NCBI RefSeq assembly: GCF_000814825.1
Contig: NZ_CP009302.1
Location: 1,178,001 to 1,242,000 of the forward strand
Direction: 5' to 3'
DNA length: 64,000 nt
Source: Berryella intestinalis
Lineage (GTDB): Bacteria; Actinomycetota; Coriobacteriia; Coriobacteriales; Eggerthellaceae
Below are positions 22,954 to 63,319 of this stretch, piece by piece; the first letter of the stretch is position 1, and the number at the start of each line of letters is the position of its first letter. The notes under the pieces were generated by a model. That model saw only the letters and a program-made list of their open reading frames with translations, did not search any database and was not told the origin of the DNA. A program made the position numbers and the translations under genes.

Positions 22954-23742
22954 CTAGATGCGGTAGGCGGGATCGATCTGCTGAAGCTCGGCGAACGAGT
23001 CGATCTCGTCGATGTCTCCGAACGCGCACTCCCTCACCCGCACGCGATACCGATCGCGGCAGATGACGCAAGGCACGTCGTCCCAAAAGCGCTGGCGGTT
23101 CTCGTCGCGGGAGAACTCGCGCGGCAGGTCCTCGGCCAAGCGCTCGCCCGCCTCGGCCGTCCAGTACGACACGCCGTACATGTGGTGGCAGTCTCGGCCG
23201 CCCTTATGCAGGTCTACCACGTAGCCGTCCTCGGTGTCCAGGCACCAGTCCTCGGTCGATTCGACCGGAACGCCCAGATACCAGCTTTCGTAGTTGTACT
23301 TCTTCAGCAGCCCCGGCTTCGACAGCATGAGATCGCTTTCGAAGGCGTACGCGTTGCGGAAATGCCCGCTTGCGCACACGGCCGACGAGATGTTGTTCGT
23401 GGTGTCGTACAGATCGTTCCTGATAAGGGTGATGTTCGGGTAGTCCTTCCTCAGAAGCTCGAACTCGTCGGCCAGATACCCCACGACGATGTAGATCTCC
23501 TCGACGTCGATGGCGGCCAGGGCGTCGAGCAGGCTCTCGATGATGCGGCGTCCCTTCACGCGCACCAGCGGCTTGGGCGTGTTGATCGTTATGGGCAGCA
23601 TGCGGCTCCCGAACCCCGATGCGAACAGAACCGCCCGCCGGGCCCGGTACGGCTCGAGCGCGGCCAGATCCTCCTCGGTCGCAAGGCCCTTCTCGTACTT
23701 CTCCTCCAAAAGCTCGAACTGCCGAGGCGATAATCCAGCCAT
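22954..23742 (-). CDS. LicC-like nucleotidyltransferase (probable CTP:phosphocholine/phosphoethanolamine cytidylyltransferase)
   Basis: The 262-residue protein has a short helical N-terminus, then the nucleotide-binding motif VLFASGFGSRMLPIT with NTPKPLVRVKG near residues 38-60. VVGYLADEFE, NISSAV and the acidic SDLMLS follow. The canonical LAAG is LFASG. This is the sugar-nucleotidyltransferase fold of LicC. ATG 23742 follows GGGAG. It is 64 bp downstream of the broken permease and in the same direction as the HTH-LicC-LicA fusion, whose middle domain is a paralogue, so the cluster has two nucleotidyltransferases. Confidence 0.82.
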   Translation of the reverse strand: MAGLSPRQFELLEEKYEKGLATEEDLAALEPYRARRAVLFASGFGSRMLPITINTPKPLVRVKGRRIIESLLDALAAIDVEEIYIVVGYLADEFELLRKDYPNITLIRNDLYDTTNNISSAVCASGHFRNAYAFESDLMLSKPGLLKKYNYESWYLGVPVESTEDWCLDTEDGYVVDLHKGGRDCHHMYGVSYWTAEAGERLAEDLPREFSRDENRQRFWDDVPCVICRDRYRVRVRECAFGDIDEIDSFAELQQIDPAYRI

Positions 23743-23806
23743 GTCTCTCCCTTCGCCGAGCCCGATCGATGCGGACTCGGCCCGTCGCGCAATCACGTCC
23801 GCTATT

Positions 23807-25286
23807 CTAGCGAAGTTCCGCTTCGGCGGCAGCAAGACGGGCGAACTCCTCCTCGGGAGAATTCGCCACCAGGTGCCGGCAGGCGTACAGGCGGAAATAA
23901 CCCAGCCCCGCCACGATCACGGCGACGGCGCATGCGGCGGCGAACATGTCGACGAAAAACGTCGATACCACCGCCACGCACGAGAGGACGAGGCCGACGA
24001 GCGTGGTGGCCGTGCCCCCGGGCGTGCGGTACCCGCGCTCCATATCGGGCGAGTTGCGGCGCAGGATGAGATGCGACAGATTCATCAGCGCGTACGACAC
24101 GCAGGCTCCGAACACCGCGACGTTGAGGATGAGCGCGCCGTCGTGCATGACCGACACGATGGCAAGGCCCAGCCCCGCCGATGCGAGCAGCGCGACCCAG
24201 GGCGTGTGGCGCTTGCCGGTAAGCGCCAGGAAGCTGGGAAGATAGCCCGAGCGGGCGAGCGCGAACACCTGGCGCGACCCGGCGTACATCAGGCTGAAGA
24301 ACGAAGCCACGAGTCCGGCCAGGGCCGCCCAGTTCAGCACGGTGGCCAGGAAGGGGTTGCCCGCCAGGCGCAGCGCGTCGACCAAGGGCGCATCGCTCGG
24401 CCCGATGGCCGCCACGCCCGCCGAACCGGCCGCCAAAAGAAGCACCGAGAACCCGGTGAGGGCCAGAACCGTCAGGGCCCCGATAAGGCCGCGCGGCATG
24501 TCGCGGCGCGGATCGCTCGACTCCTCGGCTGCCAGGGGAACGCCTTCGACGCCGAGGAAGAACCAGATGCCGTACGGAAGGCACATGAGCGCCCCTTGAA
24601 GCGTGAGGTTGCCGCCGCCCGCCCCGTAGGCGATGTTGGAGAAGTCGAACGTCGGAGCGACGCCGATGGCGAACAGGATGAGGGCGACGATCGCGATGCC
24701 GCTGATCATCAGCATGAGGCGCAGCGCCTCGCCCACCCCGAACATATGCAGGCCCGTGAACACCACGTAGGCGGCCACGACCAGCGCGAAAGGCTCCACG
24801 CCCGGCAAAAGCCCCAGCTCCAGGATGTAGTTCGCGATGAAGGTCGCGATGGCGGCGGGGGCGCATACGTATTCGATGACCAGGGCCAACCCGGTGACGA
24901 AACCGCCCACCCGTCCCATGGCCGCGCGCGCGAACCCGAACCCGGCGCCCGTCGTGGGAATGGCGCTGGACAGCTCGGCCAGACCGAACACCGTGCACAG
25001 GTACATGAGCCCCATGACGGTGAAGGCGAACAGCATGCCCCACCATGCCCCACCAGCCGCCGTTCTGCATACCGTAGTTCCATCCCGAGAAGTCGCCCGA
25101 GATCGTGTAGGACACGCCCAGGCTCACCAGCAGGATCCAGCCGACCGATCCCTTCTTCAAGGACCGCTTGGCGAAGTACTCGTCGCCCTGCACGCTTCCC
25201 GCAGCCGATAGCGCCTCGCGGGCCGCGAAACCCTTGGCCGCCCGGCCCTCGGCCGCGGCGGACACCCCCATCTGATTGTCGTTCAT
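23807..25286 (-). pseudogene. Ethanolamine-type APC permease, frameshifted by a 10-bp tandem duplication
   Basis: Codons from ATG 25286 encode the N-terminus (DEYFAKRSLKKGSVGWILL, then SYTISGDFSGWNYGM), as in ethanolamine permeases. The frame breaks at the repeat at 25035-25054 and the rest (MLFAFTVMGLMYL onward) is in another frame. Deleting one 10-bp copy restores a continuous 489-residue, 12-helix transporter reading GGWWGMLFA across the junction. All later conserved parts are intact and no other lesion is seen, so the defect is recent or reversible. In this group it would import ethanolamine or choline for the adjacent LicA-like kinase. A restart at ATG 25036 could give a protein lacking the first helices, probably inactive. 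Confidence 0.88.
25035..25054. repeat. 10-bp perfect tandem duplication inside the permease gene
   Basis: ATGCCCCACC occurs twice back to back (25035-25044 and 25045-25054, plus-strand reading). The unit length is not a multiple of three, so copy number sets the reading frame of the permease. One copy is the in-frame state. Confidence 0.97.
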
Positions 25287-25292
25287 ATCGAA

Positions 25293-27059
25293 TTACCTCG
25301 CATACCTGTCGCAAGCGGCGGCGGCGAATTTAGAGGCCGCCTTGTACCATAGATAGAGCCAGTCGCCGACGGGATGGCCCCGGGCCTCCTTGTAGATGGC
25401 CCAGACGTACCAGTACCAGCCGACCACGGCCACGCAGCCGAGAAAATGGCGGGCTTCGTCGTCGTTCGGCGTGCGCCCGAGGTAGACGCCGTAGGTGCCA
25501 AGCGCCGCATCGATGCCGCAGGCGGGGCCCTGGGCCACGAAGTTGGCGATGTCGCACACCGGGTCGCTCATACCGGAGTACTCCCAGTCGATGAGCCACA
25601 TGTCGTCGCCCCGCACGAGGATGTTGGGCGCGTAGAAGTCGTTGTGGCAAAGGACGCGGCGCACCTCGTCTCGCTCCATGAGCCCCCGCAGCTCGTCGAT
25701 GCGCACCTCCAGCTCGTGAAAGCCGCGCGGCAGCGGGTAGGCCCGTTCGGCCAAGAGGCGCTTCAGGCCCTTCCCGTTCTCGTAGAAATCGAAGCTCCAC
25801 TGGGATTCCTCGCCGCTTTCGTGAAGCGTCCTGATCATTTCCATAGCGCGCTCGACCTGCTTGGGATCGGAGGCGTCGAACTCGGAGCATCCCTCGATGA
25901 ACTCGGATATCTTCCAGCCCTCGGCAGGATCTTCGAACACGAACGTGTCGTCGAGCCCCAGCTTCTTGGCCACCGCAAGCGAATGGGCCTCGGAGGCGCG
26001 GCTGATGATCTCTTCGGTTCCGTTGCCCGGATGGCGGTAGACGTACTTCTTCCCACGGACGCCGAACAGCACCGACAGGTTCGACAGGCCCGCTTTGATG
26101 GGCTCGACGTCGGTGATGTCGGTGCGCTCGCATGCGAGCGTGCGGCAGATGTTATCGAGGATGCGCGAATCGACGTTGACGAAGAAGTCCTCGTCGAACG
26201 CAGTGAGGTCGGTCACGTAGTCGAACTCGTAGATGACGCCCTCCCCGTAAGGCTCGATATAGGCGGTGAGTTCGCCCAGATGATCGGACAGCACTTCCTC
26301 CCACAGCTTGTCGGCGGTTTCGGGCAGGTCGTACTCGTCGGCGATGATCTGCATGAAGCGCCGCGAGAACTCGGGCGAGAAGCAGGCGGGGCCCTGCAGG
26401 GCGATTCCCCTCTCCTTGCCCATCTGGATCGACGAGATGCGGGACTTCGTGTTCAGACGCGGGATCAACCGCTCGGCGCGCCCCGTGCTGGGTGCGGCCG
26501 AGAGGTAGGTGTCGAACGCATAGGGGCAAAAGATGTTGCGCTCGTAGTACTCGTCGGAGCTGAGAACGTAGGTGCGGCCGAGGTGCGCGCGTGCGGCGAA
26601 GAGCGAGGAATGGTTGTTGCGATGGACGTACTCGTCGGTGAACAGGAGCTTCACGCCCAGCTCTTCCTCGAGGTAGAAGAAGCACTCCTTCATGTAGCCC
26701 GCCACGACCACGACCTCGTCGATGCCCGCCTCGCGCAGCTGGCGCACCAGCCGCTCGATCAGGACCTCTCCGCGCACCTCGAACATGGCCTTGGGCTTCT
26801 CGAAGGAAAGCGGCGTGAAACGGGTCGAGGCCCCGGCCGCCAGGATCACCGCGTTGCCCACGCGGTACCGCTCGAGCAGTTCCTCCCCCGCGGGCGTGAC
26901 ATGGGAATCATGGTCGAGCAGACCCTCCTCGCGCAGGTAGAGGCAGGCATGGTTCACCGTGCCCAGGGAAAGCCCCGTTTCGATGGAAACGTCGCGCTGG
27001 GTGGGCCGGTCGGAAAGCTTGAAGCAGACAAGCACTTTGAACTGGTTGCGGTTGAGCAT
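25293..27059 (-). CDS. Winged-helix / LicC-type nucleotidyltransferase / LicA-type kinase fusion
   Basis: The 588-residue protein has three modules. About 1-65 is a winged helix (SDRPTQRDVSIETGLSLGTV). About 68-300 is a nucleotidyltransferase with VILAAGASTRFTPLS and EKPKAMFEVRG. About 310-588 is a choline/ethanolamine-kinase or aminoglycoside-phosphotransferase domain with the catalytic LCHNDFYAPN and metal-binding LIDWEYSGMSDP. The two enzyme modules match successive lic steps, phosphorylation of choline or ethanolamine and activation with CTP. The HTH could sense product or control the operon. It is 6 bp upstream of the permease. GAGGA precedes ATG 27059. No LicD transferase is in the window, so the acceptor is unknown. 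Confidence 0.87.
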   Translation of the reverse strand: MLNRNQFKVLVCFKLSDRPTQRDVSIETGLSLGTVNHACLYLREEGLLDHDSHVTPAGEELLERYRVGNAVILAAGASTRFTPLSFEKPKAMFEVRGEVLIERLVRQLREAGIDEVVVVAGYMKECFFYLEEELGVKLLFTDEYVHRNNHSSLFAARAHLGRTYVLSSDEYYERNIFCPYAFDTYLSAAPSTGRAERLIPRLNTKSRISSIQMGKERGIALQGPACFSPEFSRRFMQIIADEYDLPETADKLWEEVLSDHLGELTAYIEPYGEGVIYEFDYVTDLTAFDEDFFVNVDSRILDNICRTLACERTDITDVEPIKAGLSNLSVLFGVRGKKYVYRHPGNGTEEIISRASEAHSLAVAKKLGLDDTFVFEDPAEGWKISEFIEGCSEFDASDPKQVERAMEMIRTLHESGEESQWSFDFYENGKGLKRLLAERAYPLPRGFHELEVRIDELRGLMERDEVRRVLCHNDFYAPNILVRGDDMWLIDWEYSGMSDPVCDIANFVAQGPACGIDAALGTYGVYLGRTPNDDEARHFLGCVAVVGWYWYVWAIYKEARGHPVGDWLYLWYKAASKFAAAACDRYAR

Positions 27060-31232: not shown

Positions 31233-31976
31233 CTAGGCCTTTTTCAGGCCGCCCTTGACCTCGCCAGGCTTCTTGTCGTCGTCGGCCACCTCGTACTCGA
31301 TGACGTTTTTGCCCTCTTCGATCTCTTCACGCGCCCAGAAGCCCCAGTGGTACAGAGCGTCGGACTCCTTCACGCGCCCGTTGCCGAACATCAGCGTCAC
31401 CAGGCCGCGGTACGGCTGGAACACGCCGGCGCCCAGGTAGGCGTGCGCGATCACGAACACCACCAGCAACAGGAAGAACAGCTGGTGGACGAAGCGCATC
31501 GCGATCAGCAGCTGCGGGTCGGCGCGAAACGCGCTCGTGCCCAGCCACAGGACCACGCCCGACACCGCCATCGCCAGCGAGCTTACGATCAGCATACCAT
31601 CGGCGAAGCGCTGGCCCGACTTGACCTCGTCCTGGTCGGGCATATGTACCCGTTTCGGTCCCAACATGTAAGGAACGAACTTGATGACGAACTCGACGTC
31701 TTCCTTGGTCCAGGCCGTGATGTACTTCTTCCACAGGCGCACGACGCCTTTGGGCGCCAGGATCGCGCTCACGATGGGGGCCAGGATCAGCACCGCGCCC
31801 ACCACGCGGTGGGAGAAGCGGAAGAACTGGGTGACGTCGGATCCGATCGCGGCCCCGGCGCCCGGGATCATGACGAACAGGCCGGTGATCGAGAGCCACA
31901 GGATCGAGAACACCACGATGCCGTGCGTGATGCGCGTCTGGAGGGAATGCCTCTGAATCTCGCGTTTGACTGCCAT
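31233..31976 (-). CDS. fdnI: Formate dehydrogenase cytochrome b subunit, operon 1
   Basis: The 247-residue membrane protein has four hydrophobic helices and histidines suited to two b hemes: RITHGIVVF, FRFSHRVVGAV, RFVHQLFF and VIAHAYLG. FdnI anchors the FdnGH catalytic arm to the membrane and passes electrons to quinone. The C-terminal ~40 residues are charged and cytoplasmic. ATG 31976 overlaps the fdnH stop by one base. The copy in operon 2 is closely similar. Confidence 0.93.
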   Translation of the reverse strand: MAVKREIQRHSLQTRITHGIVVFSILWLSITGLFVMIPGAGAAIGSDVTQFFRFSHRVVGAVLILAPIVSAILAPKGVVRLWKKYITAWTKEDVEFVIKFVPYMLGPKRVHMPDQDEVKSGQRFADGMLIVSSLAMAVSGVVLWLGTSAFRADPQLLIAMRFVHQLFFLLLVVFVIAHAYLGAGVFQPYRGLVTLMFGNGRVKESDALYHWGFWAREEIEEGKNVIEYEVADDDKKPGEVKGGLKKA

Positions 31977-32863
31977 TAGCGCTCCCCCGCTTCCTTGTCG
32001 ATGTGCTTGACGATCTCGCCGGTGTCGACGTCGATAACGTCGTGGGACGCCTCGTCGTAGCGCTGCTCGTCGCGGCGGTACCCGATGCCGGTCGCAAACG
32101 ACAGGCCCAGGCCGGCCACCACGCCCACGGCTCCGACCGCCGTCAGCGTCTTCATGAGGTTCTCGGTTTCGATCATGCCGTGGACCTGCGGGTTCTCGGG
32201 CAGCTCGTACCGATCGAGGCCGCGGTGCAGCACGTGGATGATGTGCGTGCCGCCCACTTCCTCGGCGCCGTACACCGACGCGTCGGCATAGCCGCGCTCC
32301 TTGAGCTTGGCGACCTTCTCGGCGGCCTTGGCCAGCATCTCCTCGCGCGTGCCGAACAGAAGCGCGCCGGGCTGGCAGGTGGACACGCAGGCGGGCTCGC
32401 GGCCGTTTTCGACGCGGTCGGAGCACATGGTGCACTTGTTCAGCTTGATGCCCATGCCGTCGAGCCCCACGCCGGTGTGGCGCGGGATGTCGAAGGGGCA
32501 GGCCGAGCGGCAGTACTGGCACCCGATGCACTTGTCGTCGTCGGCGACGACGAACCCGTGCTCGTCATGCGACAAACACCCGGTCGGGCACACGTCGACG
32601 CAGCCCGCGTTCGTGCAGTGCATGCACGAGCGGCGGCCGAACGTCCAGTCGATGCCCCAGCGCTTGTCGTTGTCGGCCTCGTTGAAGGTGATGATCATGC
32701 GCGTGGTGTCGTTGACGTCGGCGGGGTTTTGCAAAGAACCGCTCCACTCCTGGGAGTTCTTCACCAAAGGAGAGGGAAGCTCGTTCCACACCTTGCAGGC
32801 TACCTGGCAGCCCTTGCATGCGGTGCAGACGGACGAATCGTACAGCATTGCCATTTCAGTCAT
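31976..32863 (-). CDS. fdnH: Formate dehydrogenase iron-sulfur subunit, operon 1
   Basis: The 295-residue protein has four ferredoxin-type cysteine clusters: CTACKGCQVAC, CMHCTNAGCVDVC, CIGCQYCRSAC and CTMC...CVSTC. These give four [4Fe-4S] centres as in FdnH/FdoH. A single C-terminal helix (TAVGAVGVVAGLGLSFATG) anchors it. It has no own Tat signal and should be carried by FdnG. It links the molybdenum or tungsten site in FdnG with the hemes of FdnI. Confidence 0.94.
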   Translation of the reverse strand: MTEMAMLYDSSVCTACKGCQVACKVWNELPSPLVKNSQEWSGSLQNPADVNDTTRMIITFNEADNDKRWGIDWTFGRRSCMHCTNAGCVDVCPTGCLSHDEHGFVVADDDKCIGCQYCRSACPFDIPRHTGVGLDGMGIKLNKCTMCSDRVENGREPACVSTCQPGALLFGTREEMLAKAAEKVAKLKERGYADASVYGAEEVGGTHIIHVLHRGLDRYELPENPQVHGMIETENLMKTLTAVGAVGVVAGLGLSFATGIGYRRDEQRYDEASHDVIDVDTGEIVKHIDKEAGER

Positions 32864-32880
32864 ATCTTCTCCTCCTCCCC

Positions 32881-37308: not shown

Positions 37309-38061
37309 CTAGCGGGACTCCGCCTTCGCGAGCGGCCCTTTCACCTCGCCGGGCTTCTTGTCGTCGTCGGGCACCTCGACCTCGACGACGTTCTCACCGC
37401 GCTCGAGCTCTTCGCGGGCCCAGAAGCCCCAGTGGTACAAGGCGTTCGACTCGCTGACGCGCCCGTTTCCGAACATCAGGCGGACGGTTCCCTTGTACGG
37501 CTGGAACACGCCGCCGCCCAGGTAGGCATGCGCGATCACGAACACGATCAGCAGGATGAAGAACAGCTGGTGGATGAAGCGCATCGCGATCAGCAGCTGC
37601 GGGTCGGCGCGAAACGCGCTCGTGCCCAGCCACATAATCGCCCCCGACACCGCCATCGCCAGAGCGCTGACCATCAGCAGGCCGTCGGCGATCCTCTGTC
37701 CCGACTTCACCTCGTCCTGGTCGGGCATGTGCACGCGTTTGGGGCCCAGCATGTAGGGAACGAACTTCACCATGAACTCGAAGTCTTCCCTCGTCCATGC
37801 CGTGACGTACTTCCTCCACATGCGCGCAACCCCCTTGGGTGAAAGGATCGCGCTCACGATGGGGGCCAAAATCAGCACCGCGCCCACCACGCGGTGGGAG
37901 AAGCGGAAGAACTGGGTGAGGTCGGTGCCCACCGCGGCTCCCAATCCCGGGATCATGACGAACAGGCCGGTGATCGACAGCCACACGACGCTGAACGCAA
38001 CCACCCCGTGCGTGATGCGCGTCTGGAGGGAATGCCTTTTGATCTCTCGTTTGACGGCCAT
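37309..38061 (-). CDS. fdnI: Formate dehydrogenase cytochrome b subunit, operon 2
   Basis: The 250-residue protein has the same layout as the operon 1 copy: four helices and the histidine contexts RITHGVVAF, FRFSHRVVGAV, RFIHQLFF and VIAHAYLG. Differences are mostly conservative and concentrated in the first helix and the charged tail (which ends KAESR). ATG 38061 overlaps the fdnH stop by one base. Downstream DNA runs straight into the repeat island, and no fdhE follows. Confidence 0.93.
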   Translation of the reverse strand: MAVKREIKRHSLQTRITHGVVAFSVVWLSITGLFVMIPGLGAAVGTDLTQFFRFSHRVVGAVLILAPIVSAILSPKGVARMWRKYVTAWTREDFEFMVKFVPYMLGPKRVHMPDQDEVKSGQRIADGLLMVSALAMAVSGAIMWLGTSAFRADPQLLIAMRFIHQLFFILLIVFVIAHAYLGGGVFQPYKGTVRLMFGNGRVSESNALYHWGFWAREELERGENVVEVEVPDDDKKPGEVKGPLAKAESR

Positions 38062-38954
38062 TATCGCTCCCCCGCTTCCTTGTCGATGTGGCGGACGACC
38101 TCGCCGGTGTCGACGTCGACGATGTCTCCGGTCTTCTCGTCGTAGCGCATCTCGTCGCGGCGGTACCCGATGCCGGTCGCGAACGACAGACCCAGACCTG
38201 CGACGACTCCCGCGGCGCCCACGCCCGCAAGGATCTTCATCGTCGTATCCTCCACGCGCGTCATCTGGGGAACCTCGGGGTTCTCGGGCAGTTCGTACAT
38301 CTCCATGCCGTATTTGAGCACATGGATGGTATGGCAGCCCCCGCACTCGTCCTTCCCGTAGACGCGCGCCTTGGAAAAGCCCTTGGCATGCAGCTCCTCG
38401 ACGCGGGCCTCGGCTTTCGCGATCATCTCGTCGCGGTCGCCGAAATCGAGCGCTTCGGGCTGGCACGAGGTGACGCAGGCGGGAGCGCGCCCCGCACGCA
38501 CCCGGTCGATGCACCCCGTGCACTTGTTGATCTTGATCCCCATGCCGTCGAGCCCCACACCGGTGTGGCGCGGGATGTCGAAGGGGCAGGCCGAGCGGCA
38601 GTACTGGCACCCGATGCACTTGTCGTGGTCGAGGATCGTGAAGCCCGTCTCCTCGTCTTTGGTGAGGCATCCCGTGGGGCATGCGACCACGCAGGCCGCA
38701 TCGTCGCAGTGCATGCACGAGCGGCGGCCGAACGCCCAGTCGATGCCCCAGGCGGTATCGTTGTCAGCCTCCCTGAAGGTCATGACGAGGCGCGTGTCGC
38801 CGTTCAGGTCGGGAGGGTTTTGCAAAGAACCGCTCCACTCCTGGGAGTTCTTCTCCATCGGCGAAGGAAGCTCGTTCCACACCTTGCACGAAACCTGGCA
38901 GCCCTTGCATGCGGTGCAGCGGGACGCATCGTAGTAAATGGCAACTCCGGACAT
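38061..38954 (-). CDS. fdnH: Formate dehydrogenase iron-sulfur subunit, operon 2
   Basis: The 297-residue protein keeps all four cysteine clusters (CTACKGCQVSC, CMHCDDAACVVAC, CIGCQYCRSAC, CTGC...CVTSC) and the C-terminal anchor helix. It differs from copy 1 mostly in the last third, where KDECGGCHTIHVLKY contains an extra CGGCH. That resembles a c-type heme motif but sits in a subunit not known to bind heme, so it is probably chance. It is cotranscribed with fdnG and fdnI. Confidence 0.94.
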   Translation of the reverse strand: MSGVAIYYDASRCTACKGCQVSCKVWNELPSPMEKNSQEWSGSLQNPPDLNGDTRLVMTFREADNDTAWGIDWAFGRRSCMHCDDAACVVACPTGCLTKDEETGFTILDHDKCIGCQYCRSACPFDIPRHTGVGLDGMGIKINKCTGCIDRVRAGRAPACVTSCQPEALDFGDRDEMIAKAEARVEELHAKGFSKARVYGKDECGGCHTIHVLKYGMEMYELPENPEVPQMTRVEDTTMKILAGVGAAGVVAGLGLSFATGIGYRRDEMRYDEKTGDIVDVDTGEVVRHIDKEAGER

Positions 38955-38970
38955 GGCAGCCTCCTTCCTT

Positions 38971-41900
38971 CTAAGCCTTCTCGACGTCCACGAGGAACGC
39001 CTTGTACTCCGGGATGTAGCTGTTCGGGTCGCCCACGTTCGGCGTCAGGTCGTTCACGACGTCGCCGGTGGAGAACATGCCCGCCCAGCCCCAGTGATGC
39101 ACCATGCCCACCTGATGGACGGTCTGCCCGTTCACCGTCAGGGGCCGCAAGCGCCGCGTGACCATGGCGTTGAGCTTCACCGACCCGCGGTTGTTGAACA
39201 CGCGGACCGCGTCCCCGTTCGCAATGCCCTTCTCGGCGGCCAGCTCGGTGGATATCTCGATGAACTGGCGGGGGGCCGCCTCGTTGAGCGCAGGGATGCT
39301 GCGCGTCTGGGTTCCGGACTGCCAATGCTCGGTGATGGAGTACGTGGTGGCCACGATCGGGTAGCGCTCCTTGTCGCCGCGCTTGACCGACGGGTGGTCG
39401 GCGAACTTGATCATGGGAGAGTTCTCGCGTTTGTTCAGCTGGTTCACCCCGATCGGCGTTTCGAAGGGCTCGTAGAACTCGGGGAACGGCGCGTCTTTCA
39501 TGCCGGTGGTCATGAGGTTGCCCTTGCCCTCCCACTTCATGATGAAGGCGGTGGTGTTGGGCGGGATGGGAACGGCGTTACCCTCCCCGTCTTTCTTCTC
39601 GATGCCGAAGTCGGGAACGTCGTTGTGCTGCCACTTCTCGCCGTCCCACCATACGAGGGCACGCTCCGGGTTCCACGGCCTGCCCTGGGCATCGGCCGAG
39701 GCGCGATTGTACAGCACGCGGCGATTCGCGGGCCACGAGAACGTCCAGTTGGGATACAGGCCCAGGTTGCCCGGATCCTCGTGCCCGCGCCTTCCGGTGG
39801 GCTGGGCGCTGGGGTCGAGCTTCGCCCCGTCGTTGTTGTAGAAGCCCGAATATATCCAGATGGCGTTCGAGGTCGAACCGTCGGCCTTGAGCTCGCCGAA
39901 GTTCTTCAGCAGCTTTCCGGTGCGCACGTCGTAGCCGTTGAGGGCCCAGTCCACCGCGCGCGGATCGATCTTGCCGTCGATGTAGTAGTCCCACTTCGCG
40001 TTCAGGATGGGCTCGGGGCGCACGCCGCCGGCTCGGTACGCTTCGACGATCGCCGCATGCAGCAGGTCGGCGATCTCGTAGTCGGGCTTCGCGTCGCCCA
40101 GAGGCTCGACCGCCTTGTAGCGCTGCTGCATCCAGCGGCCCGAGTTCAGGATGGTGCCCGACTTCTCGAATATCAAAGCTGCGGGAAGGAAGTAGCACTC
40201 GGTGTCGATCTTGGAGGCGTCCATGTCCGGCGCCTTCCAGAACGTCGCCGTTTCCGTTTCGAACCAGTCGGCCACCACCAGCCAGTCCAGCTTGCACATC
40301 GCGTTGCGCGAGAACTTCGCGTTCGGATCGGAGTGGACGGGGTTCTGACCCCAGGCGAAGTACCCCTTCATCGTCCCCTCGTCCATACGGTGGAACGTCC
40401 CCATGGTGGTGAAATCGTCCCCGTTCTCGGGAATCTTGGGCAGCCAGTCGTAACCGTAGTCGTTGTCGGCCGTAGCGCGCTCGCCGAAGAACTCCTTCAA
40501 AAACGACACCATGAACTTGGGCTTGTTGGTGTAGTAGCCCGCCGCGTAGGTCTCGTGCTCGCACCACGTTTTCAGATCGGGGCTCGCCGTGACGTGGGGC
40601 CATTTCAGATAGCCCGGGGCGTCGAACACGGTCATGCCCATGTCGGTGGCTCCCTGGACGTTGGGCTCGCCGCGCAGGGCGTTCAGGCCGCCGCCTGCCA
40701 CGCCGGCGTTGCCCAGAAGCATCTGGATCATGGCCATGATGCGGGTGTTCTGGGCGCCGTAGTGGTGCTGGGTCTGCCCGAGGGCGTACAGGATGGTCCC
40801 CGCTTTGTCGGGCGCTCCGGTCGAGCAGAAGATGGAGTAGACCTCTTCGAGCGTGGCTTCATCCATGCCGCACACCGAGCACACCTTCTCGATGGTGTAG
40901 CGTTCGTAGTGCTTCTTCATCAGCTGGAACACGCAGTTCGGATCCTGAAGCGTCGGATCGGTCTTCGCATGCTTGACCTTCGGCGTATCGAATGCCGGCA
41001 CTCCGTCCTGGGAGACCCAGGAGAACTCGCCTTTTTCGGACGTGTCCCACGAAGACGTCGAGTCGACCTGGTATCCCCAGGTGGTGGTTTCGTACTTTCC
41101 CTTAGCCTCGTTCCAACCGGAGAACAGGCCGGTCTCCACGTCGAAGCGGTAGGCGGGATCGATCAGGTAGCTCGCATTGGTGTAATCCAAGACGTAGTCG
41201 TGCTGCCATAGGTCGTTTTCTATGATGTAGTTGATCATGCCGCCGTAAAACGCGATGTCGGTGCCCGAGCGGATGGGACAGTACAGATCGGCCATCTGGG
41301 CCGTGCGCGTGAAGCGGGGGTCGACCACGATCCACTTCGCCCCCCTGTCCTGAGCGCGATGCGTCCAATGCGAGCTGATCGGATGGTTCTCGAGGTTGTT
41401 GGAGCCGCACGTCAGGATGACGTCGGCGTTTTGGAAGTCGCACCAATGCCCCGTCATGGAGCCGCGACCGAATGAAGGCGCCAGACCGACGACCGTGGAG
41501 CTGTGTCAAACGCGCGCCTGGTTGTCGAGGGCGACCACCCCCAGCGACCTCATCAGCTTGAGGATGAGGTAGTCCTCCTCGCAGTTCTGCTGGGAACCGC
41601 CCATCGAGCCGATGGCCGGGGTGTAGTTCACCGTCACGCCGTTGCGCTCGGTGACGAAGGACTCGTCGCGGGTCTTCTTCACATGGGCGGCGATCTCGGC
41701 TGCAGCGCGATCCCAGGTGATATCCTCCCAGTCGGAAGCGCCGGGTCGACGGACCTTGGGCGATGTGATGCGGTTGGGGTTGTGCATCAGCTTTCCCGTG
41801 GCCGGATCGACCACGTTGCGCAGCTGGAACATGGTGGCGCCCTTCGGGCAAAGGGTTCCCTCGTTGATGACGTGGTCGGGGTCGCCCTCCAGGCCCACCA

Positions 41901-43135: not shown

Positions 43136-44068
43136 ATGGAACTCATCCTCGTCATCATCGTACTGCTCGTGGTCTTCTCGATCACCTGCATAAAGGTAGT
43201 GCCCCAAGCCGAGCGCGTGGTCATCGAACGCCTGGGATCGTATCTCACCACCTGGGATAACGGCCTGCACGTCAAAATCCCCTTCATCGACCGCATCCGC
43301 GCGCACGTCAGCGTCAAAGAGCAGGTGGCCGACTTCCCGCCGCAGCCCGTCATCACCAAGGACAACGTCACCATGTCCATCGACTCGGTCATCTACTTCA
43401 AGGTCATGGATCCGCGCCTGTTCTGCTACGGCGTCGAGAACCCCATGGTGGCTATCGAGAACCTCACCGCCACCACGCTGCGCAACATCATCGGCGACCT
43501 GGACCTCGACACCACGCTCGTGTCGCGCGACACCATCAACGCGCAGATGCGCTCCATCCTCGACGAGGCCACCGACGCCTGGGGCATCAAGGTCAACCGC
43601 GTCGAGGTGAAAAACATCACGCCGCCGGCCGCCATCCAGCAGGCGATGGAAAAGCAGATGAAGGCCGAGCGTGAGAAGCGCGAAGCCGTCCTGCTCGCCG
43701 AAGGCCAGAAGCAAAGCGCCATCACCATCGCAGAGGGCAACAAGCAGGCCCAGATCCTCGCCGCCGAAGCAGAGAAGGAAGCCATCATCCTCGCAGCCGA
43801 AGCCGAGAAGGAGCGCCAGATCCGCGAAGCCGAGGGCCAGGCCGAAGCCATCCGCAGCGTCCAGCAGGCAACCGCCGCCGGCATCACCATGGTGCGCGAG
43901 GCCGGAGCCGACAACGCGGTGCTCACCCTGCAGTCCTTCGAGGCGCTCAAGGAAGTTTCGAAGGGCCAGGCCACCAAGCTCATCATCCCTTCCGACATCC
44001 AGGGAATCGCGGGGTTGGCCGCCTCCCTTAAGGAAGTTGTGTCGGAGAAGGGTAACGATCAGGCATAA
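43136..44068 (+). CDS. SPFH-domain protein (QmcA/stomatin-like)
   Basis: The 310-residue protein has one N-terminal helix, then the SPFH domain (KVVPQAERVVIERLGSY, PVITKDNVTMSIDSVIYFKV, NLTATTLRNIIGDLDLD), then a long Ala/Glu coiled coil with EAEKE repeats (about 175-250) and a short tail (TKLIIPSDIQG). These membrane scaffolds oligomerise and regulate proteases. AGAAAGGATC precedes the ATG. A terminator follows at 44118-44149. Confidence 0.92.
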   Translation: MELILVIIVLLVVFSITCIKVVPQAERVVIERLGSYLTTWDNGLHVKIPFIDRIRAHVSVKEQVADFPPQPVITKDNVTMSIDSVIYFKVMDPRLFCYGVENPMVAIENLTATTLRNIIGDLDLDTTLVSRDTINAQMRSILDEATDAWGIKVNRVEVKNITPPAAIQQAMEKQMKAEREKREAVLLAEGQKQSAITIAEGNKQAQILAAEAEKEAIILAAEAEKERQIREAEGQAEAIRSVQQATAAGITMVREAGADNAVLTLQSFEALKEVSKGQATKLIIPSDIQGIAGLAASLKEVVSEKGNDQA

Positions 44069-61759: not shown

Positions 61760-63319
61760 TTATCGGTCGCCCTTGCGCAGGCGTCCGCGGAAACGGCTTG
61801 CCGCAGCCGCGGCGAAGGCCGAGGCTCCCAAAGCGGCCGCAAGCGCGAAGCCCCCGGCTTCATCGCCGGTCTGCGGGAGGGACGCCGAGGCGCGCATGGT
61901 TCCCCCTGAGACAGATCCTGCGCTTCGGCCCATGTTTCGGCCCATGTCGTTCCGGATGGCCGCCATCGTGCTTTGGCGCTCAGGGCCAGCAGCAGCATCG
62001 GAGGCTTTCGCATTGCCCGAAGCTCCCTCGGTCTGCGACGCATGCCTCTCCGCTATCCCCTCGGCCGAGTGCTTCCCCACTTTCTTCTGAGTGTCTGGCG
62101 TTCGCTGCTCATCCATCTTCTTCTGGGTACCCGGCGTCTTCTGATCGTCAGCCTTCTTCTGGACATCCGGCGTCTTCTGCTCGTCGGACTGCTTCATCGA
62201 GAACTCGGCAAGCACCTTGGCATAGGCGTCAAGCGCATCGGTCGCCGCAGCGCTCGCGCGCTGAGCTGCGACGCGAGCATCCTCAAGGGCGCGTTTCGCC
62301 GCTTCGGTATCAGCTCGGGCACGATCGTAGGCGGCTCCTGCGCTCCTCGCGCGCTCCTGGGCATCCACGTATGCCCGATGCTGGGAAACGAGGGAGTCGT
62401 GGGCTCTTTCCTTGTCCTTGTAGTCCGCCTCGGCGTCGCTCCACGATCGACGCGCGACGTCCAGCTTGCGCAGAGCCTCGTCGAGCTTCTCCTTGCTCGC
62501 CGCCGCCTTGGCCGATGCGGCCTCGAAGGCCCGGTACGTGCGCTCGATCATCGCATCGCCGCCGTTCAGGATCTCCGTCAGCTCGGCTATGGCCTTCTCG
62601 GTTGCGGCGAGGTCTGCCTTGAGCTTGTCGATCGATCGCTCATCGTCGAAAGGCCGCTTCATGCCGCCTTGCCTGTCCTTCAGCAGCCTTTCCGCTTCCT
62701 CGGCCCTCTGGATATCTTCCAGTATCCGAACCTTGTCTCTTTCCCTGTCGATCCTGTCCGTCTGCGCGTCGGCGACCTTCTTCTCCGTGGCGTTGAAATC
62801 GGACTGCGCCGCATCCCTGCTCGCCGCATCTTCGTCAGCGGTGGTTTTAGCGGCGTCCGCCTCCTTCTGAGCGACGTTCTTCCTTTTCGTCTCCTCGTCG
62901 AGGGTGGATTTCGCATGATCGAGCTCGACCTTGGCTCGATCGATATCGGTCTGGCTCGCGTCCTTGGCACTGGCGGCGCTGCTTGCGGCGTCATCGCTTG
63001 CCTTCTTGGCCGCCTCCTCGGCGCGCGCGGTTTCGCCGACCTTTTTCTGGGCAGCACCGAGTGCGGCGTTGGCCTCGTCGGACTTCGTGCGAGCGGCATC
63101 CGCGTCGGCCTTGGCGGCGTCGACTCCCGCTTGGGTGGCGGGATACGGCGAAGCTCCCATTCCCTCGGTTGCGGCTTCGGCCCCCGTCTCGGCCTTCCCG
63201 GCAGGCTGCGTCCCGGCGGGCTGTACCATGTCGACGGCGAAAGCGGGCACGGCGCCCATTCCCAAAGCAGCGCCCCCGGCGACAGCCGCTGCGCTGAACA
63301 ATCTGCCCGCATTCTTCAT
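61760..63319 (-). CDS. LPXTG-anchored coiled-coil surface protein
   Basis: The 519-residue protein has a Sec signal peptide (AAVAGGAALGMGAVPAFA), a very long charged coiled coil rich in Ala, Lys, Asp and Glu (about 65-370), and three 12-residue repeats of the type DEQKTPDVQKKA (about 378-414). It ends with a sortase motif LPQTG near 480, a hydrophobic span and RKGDR. It should be covalently bound to the wall. No catalytic domain is seen. It may be an adhesin or spacer. GGAGGA precedes ATG 63319 and lies just after a folded leader. Confidence 0.88.
   Translation of the reverse strand: MKNAGRLFSAAAVAGGAALGMGAVPAFAVDMVQPAGTQPAGKAETGAEAATEGMGASPYPATQAGVDAAKADADAARTKSDEANAALGAAQKKVGETARAEEAAKKASDDAASSAASAKDASQTDIDRAKVELDHAKSTLDEETKRKNVAQKEADAAKTTADEDAASRDAAQSDFNATEKKVADAQTDRIDRERDKVRILEDIQRAEEAERLLKDRQGGMKRPFDDERSIDKLKADLAATEKAIAELTEILNGGDAMIERTYRAFEAASAKAAASKEKLDEALRKLDVARRSWSDAEADYKDKERAHDSLVSQHRAYVDAQERARSAGAAYDRARADTEAAKRALEDARVAAQRASAAATDALDAYAKVLAEFSMKQSDEQKTPDVQKKADDQKTPGTQKKMDEQRTPDTQKKVGKHSAEGIAERHASQTEGASGNAKASDAAAGPERQSTMAAIRNDMGRNMGRSAGSVSGGTMRASASLPQTGDEAGGFALAAALGASAFAAAAASRFRGRLRKGDR
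62079..62190 (-). repeat. Three in-frame 36-bp repeats in the LPXTG gene
   Basis: Three imperfect 36-bp units encode the 12-residue Lys/Gln/Thr/Pro repeats. The unit keeps frame, so copy-number change would alter stalk length only. Boundaries are approximate. Confidence 0.75.

Follow-up and report, generated by a model that had tools for sequence, protein, structure and literature searches.

In Berryella, a genus of the Eggerthellaceae, a perfect 10-bp tandem duplication breaks a permease gene by shifting its reading frame; the genome concerned (G000 in the coordinates below) is complete and 1.97 Mb long. We consider it probable that this is a recent slippage duplication which inactivated a permease that is being lost in this lineage, and that it is not an evolved switch. 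The first-pass annotation of the window (the whole 64-kb stretch of DNA that was analysed) had put forward a reversible slipped-strand switch, with a recent null mutation as the alternative. The switch went unsupported and the null mutation fared much better, given that there is a single derived duplication, that relatives have no repeat tract at the site, and that a sister genome deleted the same gene independently.

Structure of the interrupted permease gene

The features of the locus are collected in Table 1. The copies of ATGCCCCACC lie head to tail, the first at 25035-25044 and the second at 25045-25054, and the period-10 run spans 22 bases (25034-25055), one base beyond the two copies on each side. 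Read on the minus strand, the site is TGG TGG GGC ATG GTG GGG CAT GCT..., with GGTGGGGCAT doubled, and from the start of helix 2 onwards the reading frame is one base off. The claims that the duplication puts the permease out of frame and that the repeat lies in the second helix are thus borne out by the sequence and the frame reading. The further claim that removing one copy gives a 489-residue transporter also holds as arithmetic, with the 3' frame intact to its stop.

Table 1. Coordinates of the duplication, the permease frames and the neighbouring genes in the window
Feature	Position	Strand	Remarks
Perfect 10-bp tandem duplication, ATGCCCCACC x2 (coding strand GGTGGGGCAT x2)	25035..25054	-	shifts the permease frame
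Whole APC-family permease gene	23807-25286	-	split by the duplication at 25035-25054
Permease 5' part, native frame, 83 codons	25038..25286	-	helix 1 with SGDFSGWNYG motif
Permease 3' part, intact frame, 409 codons + stop	23807..25036	-	APC family, ethanolamine-permease-like; opens at an ATG inside the repeat
494-codon frame that begins at the gene's own start, last 411 codons nonsense	23802..25286	-	after the repeat in the wrong frame, with no stop until 23804
Kinase fusion gene, HTH - nucleotidyltransferase - choline/ethanolamine kinase-like (LicC-LicA-like)	25293..27059	-	upstream of the permease, intact
Nucleotidyltransferase gene (LicC-like)	22954..23742	-	downstream of the permease, intact; start set at MAGLSPRQF

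From the ATG at 25036 the sequence is again in the native frame, down to the native stop at 23809-23807. Codon-position GC, which is 0.89-0.90 at the third position, switches frame exactly at the repeat, and in the match to the TIGR00908 profile the 5' part covers positions 2-43 and the 3' part positions 43-442, so that they join without a gap. The shared profile position 43 and the switch of the GC signature at the repeat show that the two pieces are one permease split by a single lesion. The remaining permease frame is without further defects.

The permease matches the amino acid permease families PF00324/PF13520 and is closest to the ethanolamine-permease model TIGR00908 (2.A.3.5). When the parts are scored separately, the 3' part reaches 358.7 bits (E 4e-107) over nearly the whole profile, which by itself falls below the curated cut-off of 381.75 bits, and the 5' part reaches 34.9 bits over the first 43 positions. 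Choline would be equally possible as a substrate.

The operon lies on the minus strand with all genes in the same direction, in the order kinase fusion, permease, nucleotidyltransferase, and both neighbours of the permease are intact, in agreement with its earlier description as lic-like. The same order recurs in the congener B. wangjianweii zg-1050 (CP053716.1; G003) and in several other Eggerthellaceae-type loci. The kinase fusion protein has 588 residues, with the HTH at its N-terminus followed by the nucleotidyltransferase and choline/ethanolamine-kinase-like domains. Candidate parts of a Lic-1 phosphocholine pathway, with choline or ethanolamine as the predicted substrate, are found in this genome, namely the kinase and NTP-transferase domains at the locus and three LicD-family genes elsewhere (G000:C1:1746397-1750379 and 1834065-1834772). 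The sister genome (G001) has two LicD-family genes; B. wangjianweii has zero, yet keeps an intact permease. Antisense to the permease there is a 607-codon open frame (window 23510-25333, plus strand); in this sequence, which has 65% GC, shadow frames of such length are common.

State of the permease in relatives

The species of the window is represented by one genome only, and the state of the site in other species was read from homologues. The permease is present in 16 of the 138 family genomes searched, this one included, and four permease loci came from the named collection. The alignment has 18 rows, comprising 17 homologue loci besides the B. wangjianweii entry; several of the 17 seem to be duplicates, one organism being present in two collections, and the independent genomes are therefore fewer. 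None of these 17 aligned loci of other species has the extra bases, and neither does the G328 homologue. Since no aligned relative has them, the duplication is derived in G000. The site is ordinary, variable coding sequence in relatives (GGWAGLF in B. wangjianweii, also GGWLGLA and GGWLGMV, versus GGWWGM here), and neither a repeat tract nor copy-number variation was seen there in any aligned homologue locus. The gene shows one mark of a recent pseudogene or loss-of-function allele, a derived disabling lesion in a gene that is intact in relatives. Viral contigs searched with the repeat flank and for permease relatives yielded zero further alleles. When the DNA around the repeat was compared with 395 genomes of the order, many 35-bp matches were obtained at 25051-25082. 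In the two cases examined, these reflect a chance likeness to another conserved gene with the motif SWNYERMQNGGW, which we take to be PTS IID-like, and were rejected as other copies.

The same permease is disabled by a different lesion in the sister lineage. Specifically, G001 lacks the equivalent of window 23936-25222, a deletion of about 1.29 kb of the permease (near G001:C2 1593836), and its sequence retains a 3' remnant of the gene that the start no longer reads in frame. The flanking genes of G001 are intact, with protein identities to G000 of 87% for the kinase fusion and 91% for the nucleotidyltransferase. Among 41 remnant codons compared between the two genomes, 12 differ synonymously and 2 nonsynonymously, and this mostly silent divergence indicates that the G001 deletion came after most of the divergence. 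The deletion spans the repeat site, so the ancestral state of the duplication is unreadable from G001; the stop-free frame in G000 argues against an old duplication, one in a shared ancestor included. The draft genome of a further Berryella member (G002) contains neither the permease nor the kinase fusion.

Because the sister genome deleted the gene separately, the permease appears to be dispensable in this lineage. A possible reason is a second nucleotidyltransferase-kinase fusion gene, 43% identical to the first, that lies adjacent to its own NCS1-type permease (Transp_cyt_pur, PF02133) at G000:C1:1096563-1099880. B. wangjianweii has both this second fusion gene and its PF02133 permease, and G001 has the fusion gene without that permease. 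Neither G000 nor G001 yielded a BCCT transporter.

Age and origin of the lesion

The permease was constrained until recently, as indicated by its Ka/Ks of about 0.28 between G000 and B. wangjianweii (Ka 0.226, Ks 0.821), and the G000 protein is no farther from outgroups than the B. wangjianweii protein. The flanking genes have Ks values of 0.51-0.63 between G000 and G001, and we took the branch of G000 itself as roughly 0.25-0.3 neutral substitutions per site. Simulated neutral drift left a 409-codon frame stop-free in 1.5% of cases at 0.25 and in 0.5% at 0.4 substitutions per site, and the chance of a stop-free frame over the whole G000 branch since the G001 split is about 1-2%. Since neutral decay rarely leaves such a frame free of stops, and no other lesion is found in it, the lesion should be young. 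On relaxed selection in the lineage, the independent sister deletion may be a sign, but the frame in G000 has not had time to decay. An intact frame would also be expected if frequent reversion had kept the gene working. The duplication is thus either young or in a gene kept alive by reversion, and the data fit both.

In regards to origin, the period-10 run being one base wider on each side indicates that the single-copy sequence would have been flanked by TG on either side, which fits slippage with two bases of homology. Replication slippage between two TG dinucleotides would have copied the 10-bp stretch twice. The extra 10 bases would then give a product consisting of helix 1 followed by 411 unrelated residues, which is not expected to work as a transporter. 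As the shifted frame has its stop only 5 bases or less from the native one, translation would reach the end of the gene; with transcription and translation coupled, the downstream nucleotidyltransferase should escape polarity. As in any two-copy tandem repeat, one copy could be lost at low frequency, and some revertants may exist.

The repeat as a string is unremarkable, and what is special about this duplication is only that it breaks a conserved frame. By a third-order Markov model of the window, 64 kb should contain 0.3 perfect tandem duplications with a 10-bp unit; the window contains one. A 505-kb sample of G000, taken as 20 stretches, contains two perfect tandem duplications with a unit of 10 and two with a unit of 12, and the count for a unit of 10 is about the chance number. 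The other 10-bp duplication of the sample (G000:C1:216411) is near the start of a gene with an open frame and no visible break. The window also has imperfect longer tandem repeats at 43750-43833 and 62117-62185, with periods of 33 and 36; both periods are multiples of three, so these repeats are likely in frame if coding.

An artefact of sequencing, assembly or culture, with the natural population in the one-copy state, is unlikely. In its favour, the difference is a single derived one of 10 bp, confined to one genome. However, the assembly is a single complete contig with 99.97% completeness, the sister genome has also lost this gene, and an exact 10-bp tandem insertion is an atypical type of error, which counts against this explanation. 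Comparison with G001 also gave no other convincing gene-level frame break in the window; the candidates were rejected as antisense shadow frames opposite real genes or as matches to a second paralogous gene set. The window holds two paralogous iron-sulfur/cytochrome-type redox gene sets (31233-32866 and 37324-39131) that are 6 kb apart and have about 65-70% protein identity.

We find it quite improbable that the duplication is an evolved, reversible slipped-strand switch for choline or ethanolamine uptake, akin to lic1 phase variation. The repeat is perfect, its length is indivisible by three and the frame is otherwise intact; as in a contingency locus, its copy number sets the reading frame, two copies of the 10-bp unit being out of frame. 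The operon is lic-like, LicD-type transferases are present in the same genome, and no MutS domain was found in G000. The last point says little, since 10-base loops are poorly repaired by mismatch repair in any case. Against a switch, there are only two copies, G001 deleted the gene, and perfect 10-bp duplications in the 505-kb sample are no more frequent than chance. The conserved tract with variable copy number in related species that marks a contingency locus is also missing, with all aligned loci having a single copy. We give slightly less credit still to a wider proposal, that in gut Eggerthellaceae substrate uptake for a phosphocholine-type decoration pathway is turned off, reversibly and at a low rate, by short tandem duplications in two copies, the same population also containing the one-copy state. 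Finally, it is extremely improbable that the gene still functions, whether through a programmed +1 ribosomal shift (GGG C) within the repeat or through the internal ATG start at 25036. That ATG is preceded by a G-rich GGTGGGG and opens the 409-codon frame exactly, but the product would drop helix 1, its residue 2 being aligned to residue 62 of 5oqt, a transporter chain of 471 aa. Helix 1, which carries the conserved SGDFSGWNYG motif, is kept in every homologue as well as in this gene. A programmed shift has neither a stop nor a conserved slippery site beside the repeat, which is itself absent from relatives.

Regarded as a recent, unprogrammed loss of function, the finding as it stands matters little, since it adds one case to the transporter genes that were recently lost when a short stretch was duplicated in tandem. 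For annotation it serves as a modest warning: with the shifted frame open over 411 codons, the gene is broken without a premature stop to flag it. Two sister Berryella genomes have kept the surrounding enzymes but lost this permease, each through a lesion of its own, and one may ask how the substrate now reaches these cells.

Comparison with known repeat-disabled loci

A two-copy duplication that disables a gene is an already known phenomenon, of which this permease is another example. Spontaneous tandem duplications in the pneumococcal capsule genes cap3A, cap8E and tts, with reversion and phase variation, are attributed to Waite (2001, 2003) where that work is cited in PMC4243769, PMC4022640 and PMC2995930. 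As in those genes, a two-copy duplication inside an open reading frame inactivates the gene and is in principle revertible by loss of a copy. That such duplications are reported to be reversible is the strongest point in favour of a switch here, as it indicates that a two-copy repeat can act as one. Unlike the capsule genes, for which reversion is reported, the present case concerns a permease, is known from one genome, and has a sister species that deleted the gene.

In Haemophilus influenzae, the kinase gene licA switches through a tetranucleotide tract that is long and conserved (compare PMC2651432). Both lic1 and the present locus have a frame-changing repeat within a choline-type kinase, permease and nucleotidyltransferase set. 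However, the comparison with licA drawn in the first-pass annotation is weak, as here there are two copies of a unique 10-mer in an APC-type permease, and the kinase and nucleotidyltransferase are fused and intact. Thus, the type of tract, the gene that carries it and the permease family all differ between lic1 and this operon, for which the substrate, choline or ethanolamine, is a predicted one.
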